A stretch of DNA of 33,297 nt, from positions 1 through 33,297 of the forward strand of contig WYBR01000126.1 of the NCBI GenBank assembly GCA_011525805.1. The letters run 5' to 3'. Source of the stretch: Vicinamibacteraceae bacterium (GTDB lineage: Bacteria > Planctomycetota > Phycisphaerae > Phycisphaerales > UBA5793). The notes under the pieces were generated by a model that was not told the DNA's origin, made no database searches, and was given only the letters and a program-made list of their open reading frames with translations. Shown one piece after another: positions 10,816-26,284 of this stretch. The first letter of the stretch is position 1, and the number at the start of each line of letters is the position of its first letter. A program made the position numbers and the translations under genes.

Positions 10816-10843
10816 AGTATATGCTCATATGGGAATATGTCAA
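10816..10843 (-). promoter_or_regulatory. Promoter and candidate operator of the ArsR operon
   Basis: On the minus strand, TTGACA (10843-10838, a perfect -35) is followed after 16 bases by TATACT (10821-10816, 5 of 6 matches to TATAAT). The palindrome ATATG-AG-CATAT (10830-10819) overlaps the spacer and the -10 box, where a repressor would block polymerase. The sequence is much richer in A/T than its surroundings. Confidence 0.75.
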
Positions 10844-11177
10844 GTCGACTCGCCTCGGTGCGGCGGGCGGCAATGCCGACGCGAGATGCGGGAGCCCTCC
10901 CGCGACCGTCCGCCGTGTCGGACGCGGCGGAGCACGACCGGCGCCGTCAACTTTGGGTGCGAGACTCTCGGCCCGCCCGCCGCGGCGCGATAGAATGACT
11001 TTCGGAATGAACTGCGCCGGGAACCCGTCTCAACGGAGGGGGGGCTGGGCGGTTCAACCAGGAACCTGCCGCCGCATCGCGATGGCGATGCGGGTGGGAC
11101 AGAACCTCACCCGCTGCGGAGATGCCGCCGACCGGCCGCAGCAAGAGTTCGCGGACGAGACATTCGAGGAGAGTGAC
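10844..11177. other. Upstream region of the peptide transporter operon, with hairpin
   Basis: No gene is supported. TAGAAT at 10990-10995 could be a -10 box for the transporter. A perfect hairpin, CCGCATCGC-GATG-GCGATGCGG (11072-11093), lies about 85 bases before the first start codon and could sit in the leader mRNA. The long frame running through this region into the binding-protein gene lacks coding character before 11178. Confidence 0.45.
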
Positions 11178-13013
11178 ATGAACGCCCAATCTGCCCGACT
11201 TCGCAACCTCGCCCTCGTATCCCTGGCCGCGTTGAGCGCCGCGGCGATGACGCTCCACGCCGGCGTCGCGAGCGATGCGGGGGAGGGATCAAGGGCGGCC
11301 GAGAAGGTCCTGCGCATCCCCATGACCACGGACGGGCCAAAGTCCCTCGATCCCGTCCGCGGCTCGACGACCTACGAGAACCGCTGCTGTTCGCAGATCT
11401 ACGACACCCTTGTCCAATACAAGTACCTCAAGCGGCCCTACGAACTCGAGCCTTCGCTGCTCGAGGAGATGCCGGCGATCTCGGCCGACGGCCTGGTGTG
11501 GCACTTCAAACTCAAGCAGGGCGTCTACTTCCAGGATGATCCCTGCTTCCCCGACGGCAAGGGGCGCGAAGTCGTCGCCTCGGACGTGTTCTACTCCTGG
11601 AAGCGGGTCGCCGATCCAAAGTACCAGTTCAAGTCGTTCTGGCTTCTCGAGGACACCATCGTCGGCTTCGATGAGTTCAAACTCGCGCAGGAGAAGGCGG
11701 CGACGTTCGACTACAGCGCCCCGGTGGAGGGGATGCGGCTCATCAACGACTGCGAGTTTGAGTTGACGCTCAAGCGGCCGGTGCAGCAGTTCATGTGGAG
11801 ATTGGCGCAGTTCCAGTTGTCCATCGTGCCGCGCGAAGCGATCGAGAAGTACGGAGACCGCTTCAACCGCCATCCCGTCGGCACCGGCCCGTTCATTCTC
11901 AGGAGCGAGGACGACTGGAAGATCGGCACGAGCCTGACGCTGCACCGCAATCCGACCTACCGCGAGGAGTTCTACCCCGACGAGTGGATGCCCGAGGATG
12001 AGGCGTTCGGATTCCACAAGCCCGCCGGGACGCGGCTGCCGATCGTCGACCGCATCGAGGTGACGTTCTTCGTGGAGAGCCAGCCGATGTGGCTCAAGTT
12101 TGAGGCGGGCGAACTCGACTACACGACCGTTCCCGAAACGGCCTACGAGAGCGCCTTTGCGAGGCGCTCGCGCAACCTCCGGCCGGCCTATGCGAATCGC
12201 GGCATTACGGCGCACAAACTGCCGCTGCTCGACTTCATTTTCCGCGGGTTCAACATGGAAGACCCGCTGCTGGGCGGGTACACGGAGGAGAAGAAGGCGC
12301 TGCGCAAGGCCATCTGCCTCGCTCTCGACTGGGAGGAGATGAACGAGGCGTACTACAACGGCACGGCGCTCGTGTATGACGGCATGATCCCACCCGGGCT
12401 GGACGGATATCCCGCGGACGGGCGCCTGCCCAACGCCTGGCGCGGACCCGACCTCGAACGCGCCCGCGAGTATCTCGCCAGGGCGGGCTACCCCGACGGC
12501 GAGGGCCTGCCGACCATCGACTACTACACGAGCAACGGCGCGACGTCGGAGCGCATGGCCGCCCTCACGGCCCGGCAACTCGCCAAGGTCAACATCAAGA
12601 TCAATCCGCGCCTCGTCGATTTCTCGACGCTCATCGAGGCGGTGGACAACAAGAAGGCGCCCTTCTTCTCCTTCGCGTGGGGCAGCGACTACCCCGACGC
12701 CGAGAACAACCTCGCCCTCTTCTACGGCCCCAACGAGGCCCCCAAGCCCAATCACTTCAACTACAAGAACGCCGAGTTCGACGCACTTTACGAGAAGATC
12801 CGCACGATGCCGCCCGGCCCGGAGCGGACGGCGATTTACGAGAAGATGCGCGACATGGTGCTCGAAGACTGCCCCTACGCCGGCTCGATGGCCCGCATCC
12901 GGCACTACCTCGTCCACCCCTGGCTGCTCAACTACAAGCCGTCGGAGACGTTTTTCACCTGGATGAAGTACCTCGACGTGGACGACTCCAAGCGTCCCGG
13001 GGCTTCGCGTTGA
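11178..13013 (+). CDS. Oligopeptide/dipeptide ABC transporter substrate-binding protein (SBP_bac_5)
   Basis: A 611-residue exported solute-binding protein of the OppA/DppA type. The N-terminus MNAQSARLRNLALVSLAALSA is a signal peptide with likely cleavage near AGVAS. Family marks include KSLDPVRGSTTYENRCCSQI, DGLVWHFKLKQGVYFQDDP, HPVGTGPFILRSEDD and the late lobe LDWEEMNEAYYNGTA through PAGYP-like LARAGYPDGEGLP. At 611 residues it is somewhat longer than typical (about 540), with extra sequence around the 200-360 region. ATG 11178 is preceded by GAGGAGAG. It starts a five-gene operon with both permeases and both ATPases. The ligand could be peptides, but some members of this class carry nickel, opines or sugars. 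Confidence 0.92.
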   Translation: MNAQSARLRNLALVSLAALSAAAMTLHAGVASDAGEGSRAAEKVLRIPMTTDGPKSLDPVRGSTTYENRCCSQIYDTLVQYKYLKRPYELEPSLLEEMPAISADGLVWHFKLKQGVYFQDDPCFPDGKGREVVASDVFYSWKRVADPKYQFKSFWLLEDTIVGFDEFKLAQEKAATFDYSAPVEGMRLINDCEFELTLKRPVQQFMWRLAQFQLSIVPREAIEKYGDRFNRHPVGTGPFILRSEDDWKIGTSLTLHRNPTYREEFYPDEWMPEDEAFGFHKPAGTRLPIVDRIEVTFFVESQPMWLKFEAGELDYTTVPETAYESAFARRSRNLRPAYANRGITAHKLPLLDFIFRGFNMEDPLLGGYTEEKKALRKAICLALDWEEMNEAYYNGTALVYDGMIPPGLDGYPADGRLPNAWRGPDLERAREYLARAGYPDGEGLPTIDYYTSNGATSERMAALTARQLAKVNIKINPRLVDFSTLIEAVDNKKAPFFSFAWGSDYPDAENNLALFYGPNEAPKPNHFNYKNAEFDALYEKIRTMPPGPERTAIYEKMRDMVLEDCPYAGSMARIRHYLVHPWLLNYKPSETFFTWMKYLDVDDSKRPGASR

Positions 13014-13046
13014 CTCACGGCTGACGTTCTCCGGAGACCGCCGGCC

Positions 13047-14060
13047 ATGTGGTCGTTCATACTCCGCCGCCTGCTTTACAACGTCCCCGTCTATCTCGGC
13101 ATTCTCCTGCTCGTGATGGGGCTGCTGCGCGTGCGCAACCCCGTCTACGCCTATCTCGGCAAGAACGCCGACGAGAAGCAGATCGCGCAACTTGAGGAGT
13201 CCTTCGGGCTCAACGACCCGTTCATCGTGCAGTACGGCCGGTTCCTCTGGAAGGGGCTGCGGCTGGACTTCGGCGAGAGTTGGAAGTACCAGGGCACGAC
13301 GGTGCGCGAAAAACTTCTCGCCTCCATTCCACCGTCCATGTCAATCACCGTACCGGCGCTGATCCTGACGAGCGTCATCTCGATCACGGTCGGGCTGATG
13401 TCGTCGTTCTACCGCGGGCGCTGGATCGACCGCCTGCTGGTCATCGCGGCGGTGCTGGGCATGAGCATCAGTTTCCTCGTCTACATCATCTTCGGGCAGT
13501 TCTTCGGCGCGTTTCTGCCCAAGCAGATGGGGCTTGAGTGGTGGCCGCTGGAGATCGGCGGCAGTTTCGACCTCTGGTTCTCCATGTCGTCCTTCAGCGT
13601 CTTTGGCCTGCGCGTTCCCTACCCCGACATCAACGCGATGACGTGGGTGAAGTTCTGCCTGCTCCCCGTGCTCATCAGCGTGATCGTCAGCATGGGCTAC
13701 GACACCCGCTTCTACCGCGCCGTGATGGTCGAAGAGTGCAACCGCGACTACATCATCACCGCCCGGGCCAAGGGCGCCACGAAGCGGAAGATCATGTTCG
13801 TGCACATGCTCAAGAACGCGATGATCCCCATCATCACGCGCATCATGACGACGCTGCCCTTCCTCATCACGGGCTCGATCCTGCTCGAGATGTACTTCAA
13901 CATCCCCGGAATGGGGCGCACGCTCATCACGGCGATCACCGACATGGACTACCCCATGATCCAGGGCTTCACGGCGGTCATCGCGCTCCTCTACATTCTC
14001 TCCATCATCTTGACTGACGTGCTCTACGCGCTGGTCGATCCGAGAGTGAGGCTTTCATGA
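13047..14060 (+). CDS. Peptide ABC transporter permease (OppB/DppB family)
   Basis: A 337-residue inner-membrane permease. The first membrane segment is at residues 3-25 (FILRRLLYNVPVYLGILLLV). A periplasmic loop with LNDPFIVQYGRFLWKGLRLDFGES follows, then a BPD_transp_1 core. The EAA loop that contacts the ATPases is DYIITARAKGATKRKIMFVH, followed by IPIITRIMTTLPFLITGSIL and IPGMGRTLITAITDMDYP, all typical of OppB. A loop GLEWWPLEIGGSFDLWFSMS is longer than usual. It begins 33 bases after the binding-protein stop, and its TGA overlaps the next ATG as ATGA, so translation is likely coupled. Confidence 0.93.
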   Translation: MWSFILRRLLYNVPVYLGILLLVMGLLRVRNPVYAYLGKNADEKQIAQLEESFGLNDPFIVQYGRFLWKGLRLDFGESWKYQGTTVREKLLASIPPSMSITVPALILTSVISITVGLMSSFYRGRWIDRLLVIAAVLGMSISFLVYIIFGQFFGAFLPKQMGLEWWPLEIGGSFDLWFSMSSFSVFGLRVPYPDINAMTWVKFCLLPVLISVIVSMGYDTRFYRAVMVEECNRDYIITARAKGATKRKIMFVHMLKNAMIPIITRIMTTLPFLITGSILLEMYFNIPGMGRTLITAITDMDYPMIQGFTAVIALLYILSIILTDVLYALVDPRVRLS

Positions 14061-15271
14061 CGGGCCGCCTGCTCCGGTCGCGCGGCGCGCGGAAGTTCCG
14101 GCGCAATCGCCTCGCCATGGCGGCGCTCGGGGTGATCCTGCTGTATTTCGCCACGGCGGTCTTTCTCTTCTTCGGCGGCGTCAGCATGGAGGCGACGAAA
14201 GAGCGCGTCGCGCCGAAGCACACGCCGGGCTTCTTTCAGACGCCCGACCTCGACCAGCGCCTCGCCTTCGCCATGCACTTCATCAGCGAGGTGGATTCGG
14301 CGACCCGCCTCGCCTCGCGCCGCGACCAGCACCCGCACGACATCCTCGTCGAAAAGGCCCTTGCGGAGCGCCGGCCGGCGCGCCTCGAACCCCAGCGGTA
14401 CGATGAACTGCTCGACGAGGCGTTCGGGATTCTCGAAGAGGAACTCGACCTCGTCGACAACATCGCGGACCATCCCGAACTCGAGCCCCGCGTCGAGCGC
14501 GTTGAAGAGATCGCCGCGGCTTTCTTTCCGATGCCGACGGGGTGGGAGGGGCGCGCGTATTGGTCTCGGACGTTTCTCGGCAGCGACGCCGCGGGGCAGT
14601 CCATCTCCATCCGCGCGATCTACTCAATCAAGGTCGCCTTTCAGATCGGGTTGATCACGAGCGTGATCTCGGTGCTTTTCGGAAGTCTGCTCGGCGCCGC
14701 GGCCGCGTTCTTCGGCGGGTGGGTCGATCACGCCATCACCTGGGTTTTCTCCACCCTCTCGTCCATTCCCTACCTCGTTCTGCTCAGCGTGCTCATCGTG
14801 GTTTTCTTCGGCACGATCTTCGACGATCCCGAGCGGCCCTTCCTCTCGCTCGTGCCGATCTACGTCGCTTTCTGCTCGACCTTCTGGATCGGGCCGTGCC
14901 GCGTTATCCGCGGCGAGACGATGAAGATCAAGGAACTGGAGTACGTGCAGGCGGCGACGGCGATCGGCTTCGGCCGCGTCTACATCCTCCTCAAGCATGT
15001 CATCCCCAACACCGCGCATCTCATGTTCATCAACTTCTCGCTGCTGTTCATCGGCGCGATCAAGTCCGAGGTCATTCTCAGTTTTCTCGGCCTGGGGGTG
15101 AAGGGACAGGCGAGTTGGGGCATCATGATCCGCGACGCCAAGGATGAAGTCGCCTCCTACTTCTTCTGGCAGATTGGAGCGGCCACGTTCCTCATGTTCG
15201 TCCTCGTGCTCGCATTCAACATCTTCACCGACGCCCTGCAGGATGCGTTCGACCCCAGGCATGTCGATTGA
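14057..15271 (+). CDS. Peptide ABC transporter permease (OppC/DppC family) with periplasmic insert
   Basis: A 404-residue inner-membrane permease, about 100 residues longer than typical OppC. The extra part (about residues 40-150) sits between the first membrane segment and the conserved FLGSDAAGQSISIRAIYSIK. It is charged and helical (LDEAFGILEEELDLVDNIAD), with a predicted extracytoplasmic position. The core is normal: the EAA loop EYVQAATAIGFGRVYILLKH and SFLGLGVKGQASWGIMIRDA. It overlaps the upstream permease by ATGA and is followed after 15 bases by an ATPase gene. The insert could contact the unusually large binding protein; this is inference. Confidence 0.92.
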   Translation: MTGRLLRSRGARKFRRNRLAMAALGVILLYFATAVFLFFGGVSMEATKERVAPKHTPGFFQTPDLDQRLAFAMHFISEVDSATRLASRRDQHPHDILVEKALAERRPARLEPQRYDELLDEAFGILEEELDLVDNIADHPELEPRVERVEEIAAAFFPMPTGWEGRAYWSRTFLGSDAAGQSISIRAIYSIKVAFQIGLITSVISVLFGSLLGAAAAFFGGWVDHAITWVFSTLSSIPYLVLLSVLIVVFFGTIFDDPERPFLSLVPIYVAFCSTFWIGPCRVIRGETMKIKELEYVQAATAIGFGRVYILLKHVIPNTAHLMFINFSLLFIGAIKSEVILSFLGLGVKGQASWGIMIRDAKDEVASYFFWQIGAATFLMFVLVLAFNIFTDALQDAFDPRHVD

Positions 15272-15286
15272 CCGGAAGACTTCCCC

Positions 15287-16321
15287 ATGATTCAGCGCGC
15301 CGCCTCCAACGCCGAGCCGATCCTCACCGTCAGAAACCTGACGACGCGCTTCCGCACGGACCTCGGCCTGGTCACCGCGGTCGATGACGTTTCATTTGAC
15401 GTGGCGGCGGGCGAAACGCTCGGCATCGTGGGCGAGTCGGGCTGCGGCAAGACGGTCACGAGCAAGTCGATCATGCGCCTGCTGCCCGAGCAGGTGACCC
15501 GCATCGACCCGAAAAGCCGCATCTTGTTCAAGGGCGTCAACCTCGCCACCGCCGACGAGGCGGCGATGCGCTCCATCCGCGGCGACAAGATCGCCATGAT
15601 CTTTCAGGAGCCGATGACGAGCCTGAACCCCGTCTTTCGGGTCGGCTGGCAGATCGACGAGGCCCTCAAGTATCACACGACTCTCAATCGCGCCCAGCGG
15701 CGCGCTCGCACCATCGAGATGCTGCGCCTCGTCGAGATTCCCAACCCCGAGCGGCGCGTCGATGAGTATCCGCATCAACTCTCGGGCGGCATGCGCCAGC
15801 GCGTCATGATCGCCATCGCGCTGTGCTGCGAGCCGGACATCCTCATCGCCGACGAGCCGACGACCGCCCTGGACGTGACCATCCAGGCGCAGATCCTCAA
15901 CCTGATGGAGGGCCTGAAGCGCAAACTCAACACCGCGATCGTCCTCATCACCCACAACCTCGGCGTGGTGGCGCAGGTGTGCGACCGGGTCATCGTCATG
16001 TACGCCGGCCGGATCATCGAGACCGGCAGCGTGCATGACATCTTCCACCGCCCGCAGCATCCGTACACGCAGGCGCTGCTCGAGTCGATTCCCAAGCGCG
16101 GCCGGCGCGAGCACGGCAAGCGCCTGCCGACGATCCCCGGCATCGTGCCCAGCCTGCACGACCTGCCGTCGCACTGCCGCTTCGCTGATCGATGCCGGTA
16201 CAAGCAGGACAAGTGCATCGCGGCCGAGCCTGACCTCATCGAAACCGGCGACGGTCGCGCGTATCGCTGCTTCTATCCACTCAACCAGGCGCCGGCGGCG
16301 CCGACGGTGGGGGCCCGTTGA
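15287..16321 (+). CDS. Peptide ABC transporter ATPase (OppD/DppD family)
   Basis: A 344-residue cytoplasmic ATPase. Walker A GESGCGKT is at 49-56, the Q-loop is MIFQEPMTSLNP, the signature LSGGMRQR, Walker B ILIADEPTTALD, and the H-loop ITHNLG. The C-terminal oligopeptide domain (HPYTQALLESIPKRGRR, then HCRFADRCRYKQDKC and YRCFYPL) carries the four cysteines often found in this family. GGAAG precedes the ATG. The stop TGA overlaps the next start as TGATG, so the two ATPases are translated together and probably form the heterodimer driving transport. Confidence 0.95.
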   Translation: MIQRAASNAEPILTVRNLTTRFRTDLGLVTAVDDVSFDVAAGETLGIVGESGCGKTVTSKSIMRLLPEQVTRIDPKSRILFKGVNLATADEAAMRSIRGDKIAMIFQEPMTSLNPVFRVGWQIDEALKYHTTLNRAQRRARTIEMLRLVEIPNPERRVDEYPHQLSGGMRQRVMIAIALCCEPDILIADEPTTALDVTIQAQILNLMEGLKRKLNTAIVLITHNLGVVAQVCDRVIVMYAGRIIETGSVHDIFHRPQHPYTQALLESIPKRGRREHGKRLPTIPGIVPSLHDLPSHCRFADRCRYKQDKCIAAEPDLIETGDGRAYRCFYPLNQAPAAPTVGAR

Positions 16322-17313
16322 TGGCGCTGATGGAAGTGCGCAATCTCGTCAAGCGATTCCCGGTGCGCGGCGGAGTGCTCAACCGCGTGATCGGGCACGT
16401 TCACGCCGTCAGCGACGTCTCCTTCGACGTACACAAGGGCGAGACTCTCGGCGTCGTCGGCGAGTCCGGCTGCGGCAAATCCACCCTCGGCAAGATGCTC
16501 ATCCGCCTCATCGAGCCCACCTCGGGCACGATCCGCTACGAGGGCAAGGACATCACGACGCTCGACCACGTCGAGCTGATGCCTTTCCGCCGCACGATGC
16601 AGATCATCTTCCAGGATCCGTATTCATCGCTGAATCCGCGCCTGACGGTGCGCTCGCTGCTGCGCGAGGCGATCGCCTTTCACCGCATCGTGCCGCGCGC
16701 TGAGATGGATGAGTACATCACCAACCTGATACGAAAAGTCGGTCTGCGCGCCGACGCGGCCGATAAATTCCCCCACGAGTTTTCCGGCGGGCAGAGGCAG
16801 CGCATCGGCATCGCCCGCGCGCTCGCCACCCGGCCTGAGTTCATCGTCGCCGATGAGCCTGTCTCCGCTCTCGACGTCTCCATCCAAGCGCAGGTTCTGA
16901 ACCTGCTCATGGACCTCAAGGACGAGTTCGGACTCACGCTCGTGTTCATCTCGCACGACCTCAAGGTCATTCAGCACTTCTGCGACCGCGTGATGGTCAT
17001 GTACCTCGGCCGGGCCGTCGAGATGATGCCCTGCCTCGACCTCGACGAGCAGGCGAGGCATCCATACAGCAAAGCGCTGCTCGGCGCAAACCCGATCGAC
17101 GATCCCAGCGACCGCCGGCCGCTGACGATTCTGCAGGGCGATGTGCCCAGCCCGTTCAACGTGCCCAAAGGCTGCCCCTTCACCGGCCGCTGTCCGGAGG
17201 TGATCGACCGCTGCCGCGAGGAGATGCCCCCGGCCGTGTCGCACTCCGACGGCCATCTTGTGGCGTGCTGGGTGGCGAGCGAGGGCGTGGCGGAGTGCCA
17301 GCGCGGAGCATAG
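16321..17313 (+). CDS. Peptide ABC transporter ATPase (OppF/DppF family)
   Basis: A 330-residue cytoplasmic ATPase. It has Walker [27 protein letters not shown], the signature FSGGQRQR, Walker [13 protein letters not shown] and the H-loop ISHDLK. The C-terminal domain has [20 protein letters not shown] and [20 protein letters not shown] then VACW, giving the four conserved cysteines. ATG 16321 shares its A with the TGA of the upstream gene. The last codons and the TAG stop lie inside a dispersed repeat (17305-17326), so the C-terminal residues RGA are repeat-derived. Confidence 0.95.
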
Positions 17314-20423: not shown

Positions 20424-21044
20424 ATGAGCAAGCACGCCCGACCCGATCGACCCATCCACGACCTGCTGGCCCGGCGCTGGAGCCCGTACGCGTTTGACGA
20501 TCGGCCCGTCTCGGCCGAGGATGCGCTTTCGCTCTTCGAGGCGGCGCGGTGGGCGGCTTCTTCCTACAACGAGCAGCCCTGGCGCTTCATCGCGGCGCTG
20601 CGGACGGACGCGGCCGCGTTCGACAAGGTGCTCTCCTGCCTCGTCGAGGCGAACCGGCAATGGGCGCAGCACGCGGGCCTGCTCGCGCTGGGCGTGATCC
20701 GCACGACCTTTTCGCGCAACGACAAGCCCAACCGCGTGGCGCTGCACGACCTCGGCCTTGCGGCCGCGAACCTGACGTTCGAGGCGACGGCGCGCGGCCT
20801 GTACGTCCACCAGATGGCGGGCATCGACCCCGACGCGGCGCGGCGGCTCTTCCACGTCCCCGAAGGACACGAAGTGGCCACGGCGATCGCCGTCGGCTAC
20901 CGCACGCCCGACTCGCGCCTGAGCGGAGAGTTGCGCGAGCGCGAGACCACGCCGCGGGCGCGCAAAGCGCTGCGTGAGTTCGTCTTCGGCGACGACTGGA
21001 ATGAGCCGGCGGCATTTGTGCCGGCCCGGGTCAGCGGAACGTAA
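20424..21044 (+). CDS. Nitroreductase family protein (FMN-dependent)
   Basis: A 206-residue flavoprotein-type oxidoreductase. LLARRWSPYAFDDRPVSAED and ARWAASSYNEQPWRFIAALR are the conserved N-terminal FMN-binding stretch, and ALHDLGLAAANLTFEATARG and ATAIAVGYRTP the later core. It should use FMN and NAD(P)H to reduce small organic substrates; specificity is unknown. ATG 20424 follows AAAGGAG (20411-20417); the frame is open upstream but lacks this signal. Its last 14 bases overlap the 3' end of the convergent BNR gene, so transcripts from the two promoters meet. Confidence 0.92.
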   Translation: MSKHARPDRPIHDLLARRWSPYAFDDRPVSAEDALSLFEAARWAASSYNEQPWRFIAALRTDAAAFDKVLSCLVEANRQWAQHAGLLALGVIRTTFSRNDKPNRVALHDLGLAAANLTFEATARGLYVHQMAGIDPDAARRLFHVPEGHEVATAIAVGYRTPDSRLSGELRERETTPRARKALREFVFGDDWNEPAAFVPARVSGT

Positions 21045-23637
21045 ACTCCACGAGGTTGCTCACGCGGCAGGTGGCTCGCTCAACGGACTGGAGAAGCACG
21101 CGCCGTCCCGCCGCGCCCGGAGGGATCGGCAGATCGAGGACGGCGTCGCCGTTGCCGTCGGCGACGGCATCGCCGGCGATTTGCGGCTGGGCCATGGTCA
21201 CCGCCACGCCTCCGCAACCGGGAATGTTCGTGCTGCCGCTGCGCATGCTGTAGACGAGGTAAACGCGGCGGCCGGCGGTGCAGTTCGTCGTGCGGAAACG
21301 GTTCACCTCTCCGGCGCGCCCCGGCTCGGGGTCGGCGAGCGCGATGCTGCGGCTTACGTTCGCGAGGAACGCCCCCCGTCCATGGGTGCCGGCGACAAGC
21401 GTGTTGGCATCCTTCCACAGGAGTTCGTCGATGGGGACGGTGCCGGGCCCCTGCGTCGCGGCGGACCAGTTCTGCCCGCCGTCGGTGGAGGTGAAGATGC
21501 CGATGTCGGTCCCGGCGTAAAGCCAGCCTTCAACGTCGGGATGGACTTCGAGCGCGCTGACGGGCGTCGAAGGCAGCGGCCAGTCGCCGCCCGTGCCGCT
21601 GATCGCGGTCCACTCGCCCCGGTTCACGTCAAAGCGCCAAACGTTGTCCGGCTCCCAGCCCATGAAGGAGAAGTAGACGGTGTCGCGGTTGAGCGGATCG
21701 ACGACGATGTGGGAGACCCAGCGGTCCGGCGGCTGGGCGGCTCCGACGTCGTCGATGCGGTTCCAGGTCGGGGTTACGGCCGTTCCGTTCTCGGTCATGA
21801 AGATGTAGCCGTTGTTGTGGCCGACGAAGATGCGGTTCGAGTTGCCTGGCGCGACGGTGATGGTGCTGATGTTGCGCGGATCGTTGTCCTCGAAGTGGTT
21901 CTGCCCGATGAAGTGAGTCTGCGGGCCGGGGTCGGGCGAGAGGCCCAGCGCCGGCTTGATCGCCGTCCAGGTTGGCGGCGTGCCCTTGACATTGTTGGTG
22001 CGCCAGAGTCGGCGGCAGCCGGTGAGCATGCGATTCGGATCGTTGGGATCGAGAATGAAGTGGGGGATGAAGTTGCAGTTGGCGCGGTTCGTCTCGCTGA
22101 TCCCGCTGTGGATGTAACTCCAGTTCTGTCCGCCGTTGGTCGAGCGGAAGATCTGGGAGAAGTAGATCTCTCCGTAGAGGTAGTTGGGATCCACGGGGTC
22201 GGCGGCGCAGAACCCGCCGTCGCCGCCGAAGGTCATGCGCCAGTCCTGCGGGTTGCCGGCGTAGCGAAGCGTGCCGTTGTCCTGCGTGCCGCCGACGATG
22301 ACGCTGCCGCTTGCGCTGACCGCCACGCCGTAGAACTGCGTGACCCCGAGGTTGTTGTTCAGATTCGTGTAGGATGAGCCGAGCGCATCGGGTACGCGGC
22401 TGATCCCGCCGTCGTGGCCGACGAAAACGACGCGGTTGCTCCCGCCGTTGTAGAGCGGGTGATTCACGATGACGTGGAAATCGGGGTGCATGTTGTTCCA
22501 CACCCGCGACATGCTCGCGCCGCCGTTGGTCGAGCGGTAGATGTACACGCCTCCGGCGACGATCGTCTCAGCGTTGGTGGGATCGACCCACAGCACGCTG
22601 TTGTAGGCGGAGTAAGTGCTCAGGCTGCCGCCGCGCGAGGCATACGTCTGCCCGCCGTCGGCCGAGCGGTAGATGCGCACGCTCCCGCTGATGCTCACGC
22701 CGGCGTAGACGATGCTCGGATTGCTCGGGGCGTAAGCGAGTTCGACGCGGACGTTGGTCGGAATGCCCGAGGCGGTCTGCCACGTGACGCCGCCGTCCGT
22801 CGAGTAGTAGGCGCCGGGATTGTGATGGTCGCCGCCGGCGACGAGGCGGTTGGGATTGGAGGGATCGGCCTTGACGTCGAGCACGCCGAAGGTTGCCGTT
22901 CGCGTCCACGAGTTCCCGCCGTCGGTCGTGCGGTGAATGCCCGACGCGGTCGCGGCGAGCATGATCGACGGATTGGTCGGGTGGATGACGAGGCGGTTGA
23001 CGAAGTGCCAGTTTTCGTCGGCGGTGCTGGGCATCTGGGCCCACGTCCTGCCGCTGTCGGTGGACTTGAAGATCCCGGCGCCGCGAATGGCGGCGGTGTT
23101 GGACGAACCTTCGTCGGCGTCGAAGAAGCCCTCGCCCGTGCCGGCGTAGAGGATGTCGGGGTTGATCGGATCGATGGCCATGCACCCGACGGAGAGCGAG
23201 GCCATGAAGTCATCGAGTGGGAACCAGGAGGCGCCGCCATCGGTCGTCTTCCAGACGCCGCCGCTCGCCGACCCGACCCACATCGTGTCGTGATTCGTCG
23301 GGTGGACGATGATGGCGCGAAGTCGGCCGCCGATGTTGCCCGGGCCGATCCATGTCCAGGCGTCGGGCGAGATGCCCGCCCCGTCGATCGGGTTGGTGAG
23401 CAGGTAGTCCCGCTGCGCCTTGGCGTTCATGAGCGCGTTGGCCGGCACGGTGCCGTCGGCGCTGAGGCGGGCCTGGTAGCGTTGCCGAGCCGCGGCGAGG
23501 GGCTGGTCGTGCTTGAGTTGACGCCGGATCGCCCGTGGACCCTCCGGGTCGTCGAAGGGCTGGACCGTCGTACACGAGGCGCCTGCGGCCAGCATCCAGC
23601 CGAGTGCCGCCAGAGTCAGGAATCGACGCATCTTCAT
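21031..23637 (-). CDS. Large exported BNR-repeat beta-propeller protein with shared C-terminal domain
   Basis: An 868-residue protein. The N-terminus MKMRRFLTLAALGWMLAAGA then SC suggests a signal peptide with possible lipidation, although Gly rather than Leu sits at -3. PDAWTWIGPGNIGGRLRAII opens the sortilin/BNR propeller, and eight repeats are visible, for example KTTDGGASW, KSTDSGRTW, RTTDGGNSW, YSTDGGVTW, RSADGGQTY, RSTNGGASM, RSTNGGQNW and TSTDGGQNW. Residues about 770-868 form a separate domain (YLVYSMRSGS..., ADGNGDAVLDLPIPPG, VSNLVEFTFR) similar to the end of the divergent TIGR03790 gene. GGGAGG is before the start. No catalytic residues can be assigned, so binding or enzymatic function is open. 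Confidence 0.88.
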   Translation of the reverse strand: MKMRRFLTLAALGWMLAAGASCTTVQPFDDPEGPRAIRRQLKHDQPLAAARQRYQARLSADGTVPANALMNAKAQRDYLLTNPIDGAGISPDAWTWIGPGNIGGRLRAIIVHPTNHDTMWVGSASGGVWKTTDGGASWFPLDDFMASLSVGCMAIDPINPDILYAGTGEGFFDADEGSSNTAAIRGAGIFKSTDSGRTWAQMPSTADENWHFVNRLVIHPTNPSIMLAATASGIHRTTDGGNSWTRTATFGVLDVKADPSNPNRLVAGGDHHNPGAYYSTDGGVTWQTASGIPTNVRVELAYAPSNPSIVYAGVSISGSVRIYRSADGGQTYASRGGSLSTYSAYNSVLWVDPTNAETIVAGGVYIYRSTNGGASMSRVWNNMHPDFHVIVNHPLYNGGSNRVVFVGHDGGISRVPDALGSSYTNLNNNLGVTQFYGVAVSASGSVIVGGTQDNGTLRYAGNPQDWRMTFGGDGGFCAADPVDPNYLYGEIYFSQIFRSTNGGQNWSYIHSGISETNRANCNFIPHFILDPNDPNRMLTGCRRLWRTNNVKGTPPTWTAIKPALGLSPDPGPQTHFIGQNHFEDNDPRNISTITVAPGNSNRIFVGHNNGYIFMTENGTAVTPTWNRIDDVGAAQPPDRWVSHIVVDPLNRDTVYFSFMGWEPDNVWRFDVNRGEWTAISGTGGDWPLPSTPVSALEVHPDVEGWLYAGTDIGIFTSTDGGQNWSAATQGPGTVPIDELLWKDANTLVAGTHGRGAFLANVSRSIALADPEPGRAGEVNRFRTTNCTAGRRVYLVYSMRSGSTNIPGCGGVAVTMAQPQIAGDAVADGNGDAVLDLPIPPGAAGRRVLLQSVERATCRVSNLVEFTFR

Positions 23638-23965
23638 TCTGAGCCTCCCTCGTGGAACCGTTGCCTTGGCGGCCCCGGCCGCCCGGCCACGTGCCCATCA
23701 TACCGGTCGGGCCCGGCGAAGTGTCGGCGAAAGCGCCCGAACGCATCCCGCACTGCCGCTACGGTCCCGCGATACAGGCTCAACCTCGCCTCCAGCGTCC
23801 GGTATTCCACATTCGTCCGCATCGAACCAGTCGGAGCCTCACTCCCGGAACGCAGAAAATCCCCGGACGAGGAGCGGAAATCCGGCCGCGATCGTGTATC
23901 TTCATGAAGAGCGTCCGCCGCCTGAGCAGTGGGGGAGTGGCTGGGCGCCACAGGGGAGAGAAAAC
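23638..23965. other. Divergent promoter region of the two large exported genes
   Basis: The 328 bases hold no supported gene. On the minus strand TATGAT (23702-23697) could be the -10 box for the BNR gene. On the plus strand TATCTT (23897-23902) could serve the TIGR03790 gene. No -35 boxes or operators stand out. Confidence 0.4.
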
Positions 23966-26284
23966 ATGCGTGCGCTCAAGAGTCGGCCCGTCCGATACCT
24001 TCCGGTCATCGCCGCCGCCGGTCTACCCGTCATCTTCGGTCAGGCGGTTCGCCCCGCCTTCGCGGGCGGGGGCGGCGAGAACGTCCTGCTCATCATCAAC
24101 CCGATGAACCGCGAGTCGCTGCTCATCGGCAACTACTACGCGGCCGCGCGGGGGATTCCCGAACGCAACGTGCTTTACCTCGTGCCCGCCTCGGCGAACT
24201 ACATGCAGTTCGTCACGGAGAACACCGCCGCGACGTTCGGCTCGCTCGCCAACCGCGAACTGGGCGACCACATCGACTTCGTCGTGGTTACGCCCGGCAA
24301 CGAGTTCTTCATCAGTGCCCCGGGGGTGGTCAACGACTCCTGCTCGCCGGTGACCAAGTTCTCGACCGGCTCAGCGTTCACGATGTCCTTCATCGCCGAC
24401 TCGATCCGGCAGGGGGGTCAGCAATCCACGCGGCCCAACCGCTACTTCGGCACGAGCAACACGCCGCTCGCCTTCGACAGCAACACCCGCTGGTTCGGCG
24501 GCGTTCCCAGCGACCGGTCTGACGCGGAGCAGTACTTCGTCGGCGTCATGCTCGGCTACACGGGTGAGCGCGGCAACACGGTCGCGCAAGTGCTCGACAT
24601 GATCGACCGCAGCGTGGCGGTCGACGGGACGTTCCCCGGCGGCACGTTCTACTTCATGCAGACGAACGACGACCTGCGCAGTTCGCCGCGGCACGGGTGG
24701 TACCCGATCGTCCGCGACGCGATCCGCGCGCTGGGCGGGCAGGCGGAGCATCTGTGCTGCAACGTCCTGCCCAACGGAGCCCAGGACGTCCTCGGCCTGA
24801 TGACGGGGGCGGCGACGGTGGACATCGAAGGCTCGGGCATCAACATCCTCCCCGGCGCCTTCTGCGATCATCTCACCAGTTTCGCCGGCACCTTCGACAA
24901 CGGCAGCCAGACCAAGATGTCGCGCTGGATCGCCAACGGCGCCAGCGGAACGGCCGGCACGGTCGAAGAACCCTGCAACTATCCCGGCAAGTTCCCGCAT
25001 GCGCGCATGCACCTGTATTACTTTCAGGGTCTCACGCTCGGCGAGTCGGTGCTGCGCAGCCTCGGGCAGATTCCTTTCCAGGTTCTGGTGATGGGGGACC
25101 CGCTCACCCAGCCCTTCACTCACATCCCGCAAGTGAGCGTCGTCGACGCGCCGACCGGGCCGGTCTCGGGCATCATCCGACTGACGCCCGACGCCCAGAC
25201 GAGCCATCCGACGGCCCTGATCAGCCACTACGACCTGCTCATCGACGGCGCGACAACGCTGACGGTGCAGCGGGGGCGAGTCTTCTCCCTCGACACCACG
25301 CGCCTGAGCGATGGCTGGCACGACCTGCGCGTCCTCGCCTACGACGACTCCGACGTCCGCTCGACGGGGCGGTGGCGCGGCTCGCTGGTCGTCAACAACC
25401 TCGGCCGCAGCGCGACGATCCAGAGCAGCCGGCAAGGCGGAAACTACGCGGATCGATTCGACCTCACGATGTCCCCGACGGGCGGGGGCGTTGTCGAATA
25501 TCGTGTGATCCAGAACGGCCGCGTCCTCGGCGCCGTGACCGACCCGGCCAACCCCGTGCGCACCTTCGGCGCGACGCTCGGCGCCGGCGACATCATCGTG
25601 CAGGGCGAAGCGCTCTATGCCGACGGGTCGCTGGTTCGCAGCGAGCCGCTGGCGCTGTCTGTTGATGACGATGCCGGATCGCCCGCGACGATTCAGCCCT
25701 ACGCGTACAGTTTCACCAGAACCGTGCTCACCGACGAGCCGTTTCTTCTTGAACTCCCCGGCACGTTCAACCAGTTCGACGCCGGGGTTGGCTACGAGAT
25801 CCGCACGCCGCCGTCGCAGTCGACGATCATCTCGACCACGGCTGGGCCGTACCGCGTGCTCCGGCCAGACCCGAACGCGACGGGGACGGACCAGTTGACG
25901 TTCCAGTGGACCTCGCCGAACGGAAACTCCAATATCGGAACGATCACGCTTGTCTACCGGCGCTGCATCCCCGGCCGCCTGCGCTTGGCCGTCGGTCCGC
26001 TGCGGCGCGGCCAGCAGGGCGTCTTCGACGTTTCCTGCGCTTATCCGAACGAGATGACGTACCTGGCGTACAGCCTTCAGGGGACGGGCAACGTCTTTGT
26101 GCCGCAACTCAACGTGACGCTGAACCTGCGCAACCCCGTGCAGGCAGGCAATCCGAAACGCTCCGACGCCGACGGCAACGTGCGCTGGACGCTGCCGATC
26201 CCGAACATCAACCCGAGGCCGGTGTGGATCCAGGCGGCCCAGCGCAGCGCTGTGAGCAACGTGGTCGAGACGATGGTGAACTAG
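23966..26284 (+). CDS. TIGR03790 family exported protein with shared C-terminal domain
   Basis: A 772-residue protein with signal peptide MRALKSRPVRYLPVIAAAGL ending near AFA. NVLLIINPMNRESLLIGNYY, followed by ARGIPERNVLYL, is the hallmark start of the TIGR03790 domain (about 35-390), which ends YYFQGLTLGESVLRSLGQIP and VLVMGDPLTQPF. The function of TIGR03790 is not established. Next come Ig-like beta segments (about 395-665), and residues about 670-772 (TYLAYSLQGTGN..., RSDADGNVRWTLPIP, VSNVVE) form the domain shared with the divergent BNR protein. GGGGAGAG precedes ATG 23966. The divergent pair may act together at the cell surface; that is inference. Confidence 0.85.
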   Translation: MRALKSRPVRYLPVIAAAGLPVIFGQAVRPAFAGGGGENVLLIINPMNRESLLIGNYYAAARGIPERNVLYLVPASANYMQFVTENTAATFGSLANRELGDHIDFVVVTPGNEFFISAPGVVNDSCSPVTKFSTGSAFTMSFIADSIRQGGQQSTRPNRYFGTSNTPLAFDSNTRWFGGVPSDRSDAEQYFVGVMLGYTGERGNTVAQVLDMIDRSVAVDGTFPGGTFYFMQTNDDLRSSPRHGWYPIVRDAIRALGGQAEHLCCNVLPNGAQDVLGLMTGAATVDIEGSGINILPGAFCDHLTSFAGTFDNGSQTKMSRWIANGASGTAGTVEEPCNYPGKFPHARMHLYYFQGLTLGESVLRSLGQIPFQVLVMGDPLTQPFTHIPQVSVVDAPTGPVSGIIRLTPDAQTSHPTALISHYDLLIDGATTLTVQRGRVFSLDTTRLSDGWHDLRVLAYDDSDVRSTGRWRGSLVVNNLGRSATIQSSRQGGNYADRFDLTMSPTGGGVVEYRVIQNGRVLGAVTDPANPVRTFGATLGAGDIIVQGEALYADGSLVRSEPLALSVDDDAGSPATIQPYAYSFTRTVLTDEPFLLELPGTFNQFDAGVGYEIRTPPSQSTIISTTAGPYRVLRPDPNATGTDQLTFQWTSPNGNSNIGTITLVYRRCIPGRLRLAVGPLRRGQQGVFDVSCAYPNEMTYLAYSLQGTGNVFVPQLNVTLNLRNPVQAGNPKRSDADGNVRWTLPIPNINPRPVWIQAAQRSAVSNVVETMVN

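Follow-up and report, generated by a model that had tools for sequence, protein, structure and literature searches.

The two divergently transcribed, exported proteins of the analysed window, a stretch of 33,297 nucleotides from a planctomycete genome (contig WYBR01000126.1), end in members of one common domain family. This family is large, so far unnamed and C-terminal, and each of the two ends is one copy of it. In our reading, to which we assign a probability of about 65%, the domain would be a folded C-terminal sorting or attachment tag, portable genome-wide in this Phycisphaerales lineage and acting after Sec export; this reading is drawn from sequence comparison and structure models.

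The first protein, a BNR/sortilin-like beta-propeller protein of 868 aa, is encoded on the reverse strand (21031-23637; PF15902 with E 1.5e-18, PF02012). Its N-terminus looks exported (MKMRRFLTLAALGWMLAAGASC), and its match to the NCBIfam model NF045728 lies below the cut-off. The second, encoded on the forward strand (23966-26284), belongs to the TIGR03790 family (E 1.6e-25; 90.3 bits at a cut-off of 67) and carries a Sec-type signal peptide (MRALKSRPVRYLPVIAAAGLPVIFGQAVRPAFA). Its start is the ATG at 23966, which yields this signal peptide; the start at 23666 given by the ORF caller is too early. Both reading frames are real and lie where the initial annotation had placed them, separated by a divergent intergenic region of 328 bp (23638-23965). 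The domain occupies 21031-21351 on the reverse strand in the BNR protein (E 3.8e-33 in a profile search of the genome) and 25970-26284 on the forward strand in the TIGR03790 protein (E 2.5e-38). The first copy belongs to a Cys-containing subfamily (IPGC...TCRVSN) and the second to one without the paired Cys (YS..G.G...P.LNVT...P...G...D..G...LPIP...W.QA...SNVVE). Elsewhere in the window, a complete oligopeptide ABC transporter operon (SBP_bac_5, two permeases and two ATPases) was found at 10821-17313.

Homology of the two ends over about 100 residues, first proposed from the letters alone, was borne out by each of the comparisons. Pairwise alignment gave 31% identity over 95 columns, with a BLOSUM62 score of 76 for the C-terminal pair, whereas the highest score among 2000 shuffles was 55 (mean 27.7, sd 5.0), and two-sequence BLASTP returned E 3e-4. 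Circularity was avoided by building profiles from orthologs only (five BNR and six TIGR03790 C-termini), with paralogs excluded from both. The hhalign comparison of these profiles is significant, with a probability of 97.2% and E 3.2e-11 over 93 columns. The motif agreement on which the homology had originally been based is correct insofar as the ends align, but in the true alignment the letters VT of the two proteins are offset by two residues.

The domain is not confined to these two proteins. A search of the genome with the TIGR03790 end alone matched 63 places, the BNR end being the 57th among them. With a profile built from 53 copies (A1), at least 144 places were found at E<=0.01; this number is a lower bound, as 150 of 274 candidates were scored. 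A second profile (A2), representing the Cys-rich branch, is related to the first (98.6%, E 5e-16) and adds 31 places among the matches listed, so that the 4.54 Mb genome holds at least 175 copies. Conservation is highest at glycine and proline columns, at an invariant Gln in a late strand and at S/T-N near the end. No model in Pfam or NCBIfam covers the domain, and a search of the accessible literature found nothing on it, on TIGR03790 or on GC-type dockerins. Two loci, L047 (C82:31010-32901) and L035 (C65:55314-56442), are tandem arrays of short proteins, each consisting solely of a signal peptide and a Cys-rich copy of the domain.

The carriers are many and the domain is nearly always terminal. 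It comprises about 100 residues and ends 3-20 residues before the stop. When 132 complete reading frames were collected around the matched places, its end lay no more than 20 residues ahead of the stop codon in 131 of them and no more than 10 in 120; the sole exception is a copy in the same genome with a tail of 114 residues. The upstream parts of the carriers belong to various extracytoplasmic families and include FG-GAP repeats, subtilases, a carboxypeptidase family, peptidases of the M14 and M28 types, Kelch and BNR repeats, PQQ/GSDH proteins, HAF repeats, choice-of-anchor B and J proteins and others. By a crude rule, a signal-peptide-like start was present in 113 of 130 carriers versus 115 of 413 control ORFs, with many non-genes among the controls.

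Further evidence comes from orthologs of the two passengers, on which the C-terminal end is exchanged between families of the order. In the own family, TIGR03790 proteins have the domain at their end, both in the own genus and in genus g267. A second family (f2) has GC-type dockerin tails at this place (NF041540, E 3.2e-12 and 4.4e-14), and a third (f4) has PEP-CTERM-like ends, one of them above the TIGR02595 cut-off and another, L126, judged by eye (VPEPASLVILLLSS...R). The same is seen for the BNR protein: orthologs from the own genus carry the domain at their end, and those of family f2, with 43-45% identity over about 690 aa, have dockerin-type tails. Here the NF041540 match of the ortholog L202 remains below the cut-off and that of the more distant homolog L207 lies above it. 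Since the orthologs in other families end in a GC-type dockerin (both proteins) or in PEP-CTERM (TIGR03790 only), the domain fills a slot otherwise taken by modules whose role in sorting and anchoring is known or presumed. Ends that are exchanged on one and the same passenger are what would be expected of such modules. A BNR ortholog in family f5 (L200, genome G368) is 57% identical and thus closer than the orthologs of family f2, and it lacks both the domain and a dockerin tail. Lateral transfer is possible in this case.

Both copies in the window are predicted with high confidence to be Ig-like beta-sandwiches. AlphaFold2 modelled each end as a compact all-beta sandwich (pLDDT 96.2 and pTM 0.87 for the TIGR03790 end, 94.0 and 0.84 for the BNR end). 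In the VIA-align comparison, the best structural neighbour common to both models is Nir2, residues 916-1015, with Z 10.1 and an rmsd of 2.4 over 88 residues for one model and Z 11.3 and an rmsd of 2.0 over 88 for the other. The outcomes named at the start as refuting a common domain, a profile comparison without significance or a domain restricted to these two proteins and with dissimilar folds, were thus not observed. The matches are mostly Ig-like chains, many at similar Z, so the fold is generic and no specific function can be read from it. Foldseek with the domain model found nothing below E 1e-3, the matches from a sequence-profile search of the PDB all lay below the threshold, and structures of T9SS CTDs were absent among the matches listed in the structural comparison, an absence that carries no weight as evidence.

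Among these matches are neocarzinostatin-type apoproteins (Z 8.5-9.0 to the model of the TIGR03790 end), and a relationship to the enediyne apoproteins (neocarzinostatin, C-1027), with the domain as a module that binds a small ligand, was considered. The corresponding sequence matches recur and are weak (C-1027 in the PDB, E 0.017; NF040680, best E 0.022, in two members); they are not significant, and other Ig-like folds score equally well or better. As use as an end tag at about 175 places does not suggest one ligand either, we regard this explanation as extremely improbable. Bacterial Ig-like domains such as Big_3_5 (PF16640) likewise resemble the domain in predicted fold. However, sequence similarity to these and to the apoproteins is sub-threshold, and neither group is known as C-terminal tags.

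The generic fold, with its many weak structural matches, would also suit a passive or adhesive Ig-like building block, serving as a stalk, for contact with matrix or glycans or for docking between proteins, without dedicated sorting machinery; its terminal place would then be an architectural habit spread by duplication. In a sample of the phylum, 55 of 392 genomes matched, and the domain is used heavily in the own genus as well as in family f61. Among the genomes listed, those of the order but outside the own family lacked the domain, and the A2 branch was detected in all six genomes of the own family and in none of 95 others of the order. The carriers with names, found with a closer alignment set (A4), are the Planctomycetota MAGs PLA5, Phycisphaerales UBA5793, KLAP200 and PNC21, and one MAG labelled Gemmatimonadetes (ARS67). 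Most copies in distant lineages are terminal. In two distant planctomycetes (L088 and L092), the domain is internal and followed by 226-228 residues of other sequence; together with the 114-residue tail in the own genome, these copies indicate that the domain need not be terminal. Two proteins (L113:2408-4612 and L115:2114-4306) have two C-terminal copies in tandem, which is rare among the carriers seen. Internal and tandem copies both favour a building block. However, a terminal position in all but one of the collected frames, across very different passengers, and the occupation of the PEP-CTERM and GC-dockerin position on orthologous passengers speak against it, and we consider this explanation unlikely. 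For the sorting tag, we count as points against it the internal distant copies, the 114-residue tail, the generic Ig fold and the failure to find a machinery, described below: SprA was not detected, in a search that left the control genomes unmatched too, and no PorU with the domain was seen.

The closest parallel in layout is the type A CTD of the type IX secretion system (PF18962/TIGR04183), which is Ig-like, forms the very end of numerous unrelated proteins exported through Sec and occurs many times in a genome (PMC10202324). The domain described here shares the predicted Ig-like fold, the C-terminal position and the high copy number. However, its host belongs to the Planctomycetota, whereas the T9SS CTD is found in Bacteroidota. 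None of the T9SS CTD models PF18962, PF13585, TIGR04183 and TIGR04131 matched the 53 domain members at E<=1, and the family listing of the full-length carriers did not contain them either. SprA (TIGR04189) was not matched in the own genome, nor in any control genome. The PorU model gave two partial matches below the cut-off, L155 (C25:77789-79738) and L156 (C72:89470-91011), which we rejected as CTD-bearing PorU sortases: they are plain Peptidase_C25 proteins without the domain. Most likely, the domain is a sorting or attachment module that would work like the T9SS CTD, which it resembles in layout, and belongs to no known CTD family.

The two end modules found on the orthologs differ from the domain in structure. 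PEP-CTERM, of the PEP-CTERM/exosortase system (TIGR02595/PF09721), is a short motif followed by a TM helix and a basic tail (PMC1569441). It is likewise a portable C-terminal end, carried by TIGR03790 proteins of a related family within the order, but the domain is a folded unit of about 100 residues without a TM helix. None of the three PEP-CTERM elements was seen in the domain, in which SNvVe is followed by a beta-strand and then few residues. The own genome also encodes a PEP-CTERM system, with two exosortases and 11 PEP-CTERM proteins; as both are present, the domain was rejected as a replacement for PEP-CTERM in this genome. The GC-type dockerin (NF041540) takes the same C-terminal slot on both orthologs in family f2, but is a short tandem EF-hand-like tail (DxNxDG) ending in GC, in contrast to the beta-sandwich found here. 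NF041540 was neither among the 25 NCBIfam families with the most matches to the carriers nor in the 53 domain sequences, and a search of the own genome, run without a control, gave no match.

The initial annotation had gone further and taken the shared end as a sign of joint function of the two proteins. On this reading, the two would be a dedicated pair, made partners in one surface complex by their common end. The two ends are indeed homologous, and the head-to-head order of the genes is kept in five of five genomes of the genus examined. However, with at least 175 copies in the genome, the shared end is a property of a large class. In the domain tree, the BNR and TIGR03790 ends fall into different subfamilies with a well-supported branch between them, and each of the two copies ranks low in the match list of the other (43rd and 49th). 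Thus, the shared end provides no specific link between the two proteins. In addition, the TIGR03790 protein of the neighbouring genus keeps the domain, and an adjacent BNR ortholog was not found there. A dedicated pair is therefore very unlikely, and the claim of joint function from the shared end is not upheld. What stands is the proposal of a shared sorting or attachment module, which the terminal position, the varied passengers and the slot shared with GC-dockerin and PEP-CTERM make plausible; that it would be specific to this pair does not stand. As the head-to-head arrangement persists within the genus, the two genes may still be co-regulated for reasons unrelated to the domain. No sigma-70-like promoter was seen in the 328-bp gap, which is weak evidence either way.

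For the sorting tag, we infer a route in which the passenger would leave the cytoplasm through Sec by means of its N-terminal signal peptide and the C-terminal Ig-like domain would fold in the periplasm. A putative dedicated envelope component would then recognise the conserved glycine- and proline-rich elements, namely the G.G.T..P.L.VT loop, the AD..G turn, the strand with the invariant Gln and the SN near the end, and may move the protein to the outer surface or hold it there. The role of the domain would thereby parallel that of the type IX CTD, the GC-type dockerin or PEP-CTERM elsewhere. The carriers may also be secreted by a general route such as the type II system, given five secretin matches in the own genome and the coexisting PEP-CTERM/exosortase system. 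One secretin domain match (L225, G000:C121:21961-22458) is located inside an open frame of 3765 codons; this frame may code for a giant fusion protein or simply be a long stretch of GC-rich DNA that happens to stay open.

The cell envelopes of planctomycetes are unusual, and little is known about the placement of proteins on their surface. Only tentatively, and as a somewhat unlikely case, we suggest a planctomycete-specific pathway of outer-membrane secretion or surface attachment, unrelated to T9SS and with a translocon or receptor of its own, that would recognise the Ig-like domain at the C-terminus of a few per cent or more of all the organism's proteins. If the domain acts as a sorting tag, it would be a ready marker of an export class, whose machinery could be sought by co-occurrence, and many hypothetical proteins could be annotated as one class.
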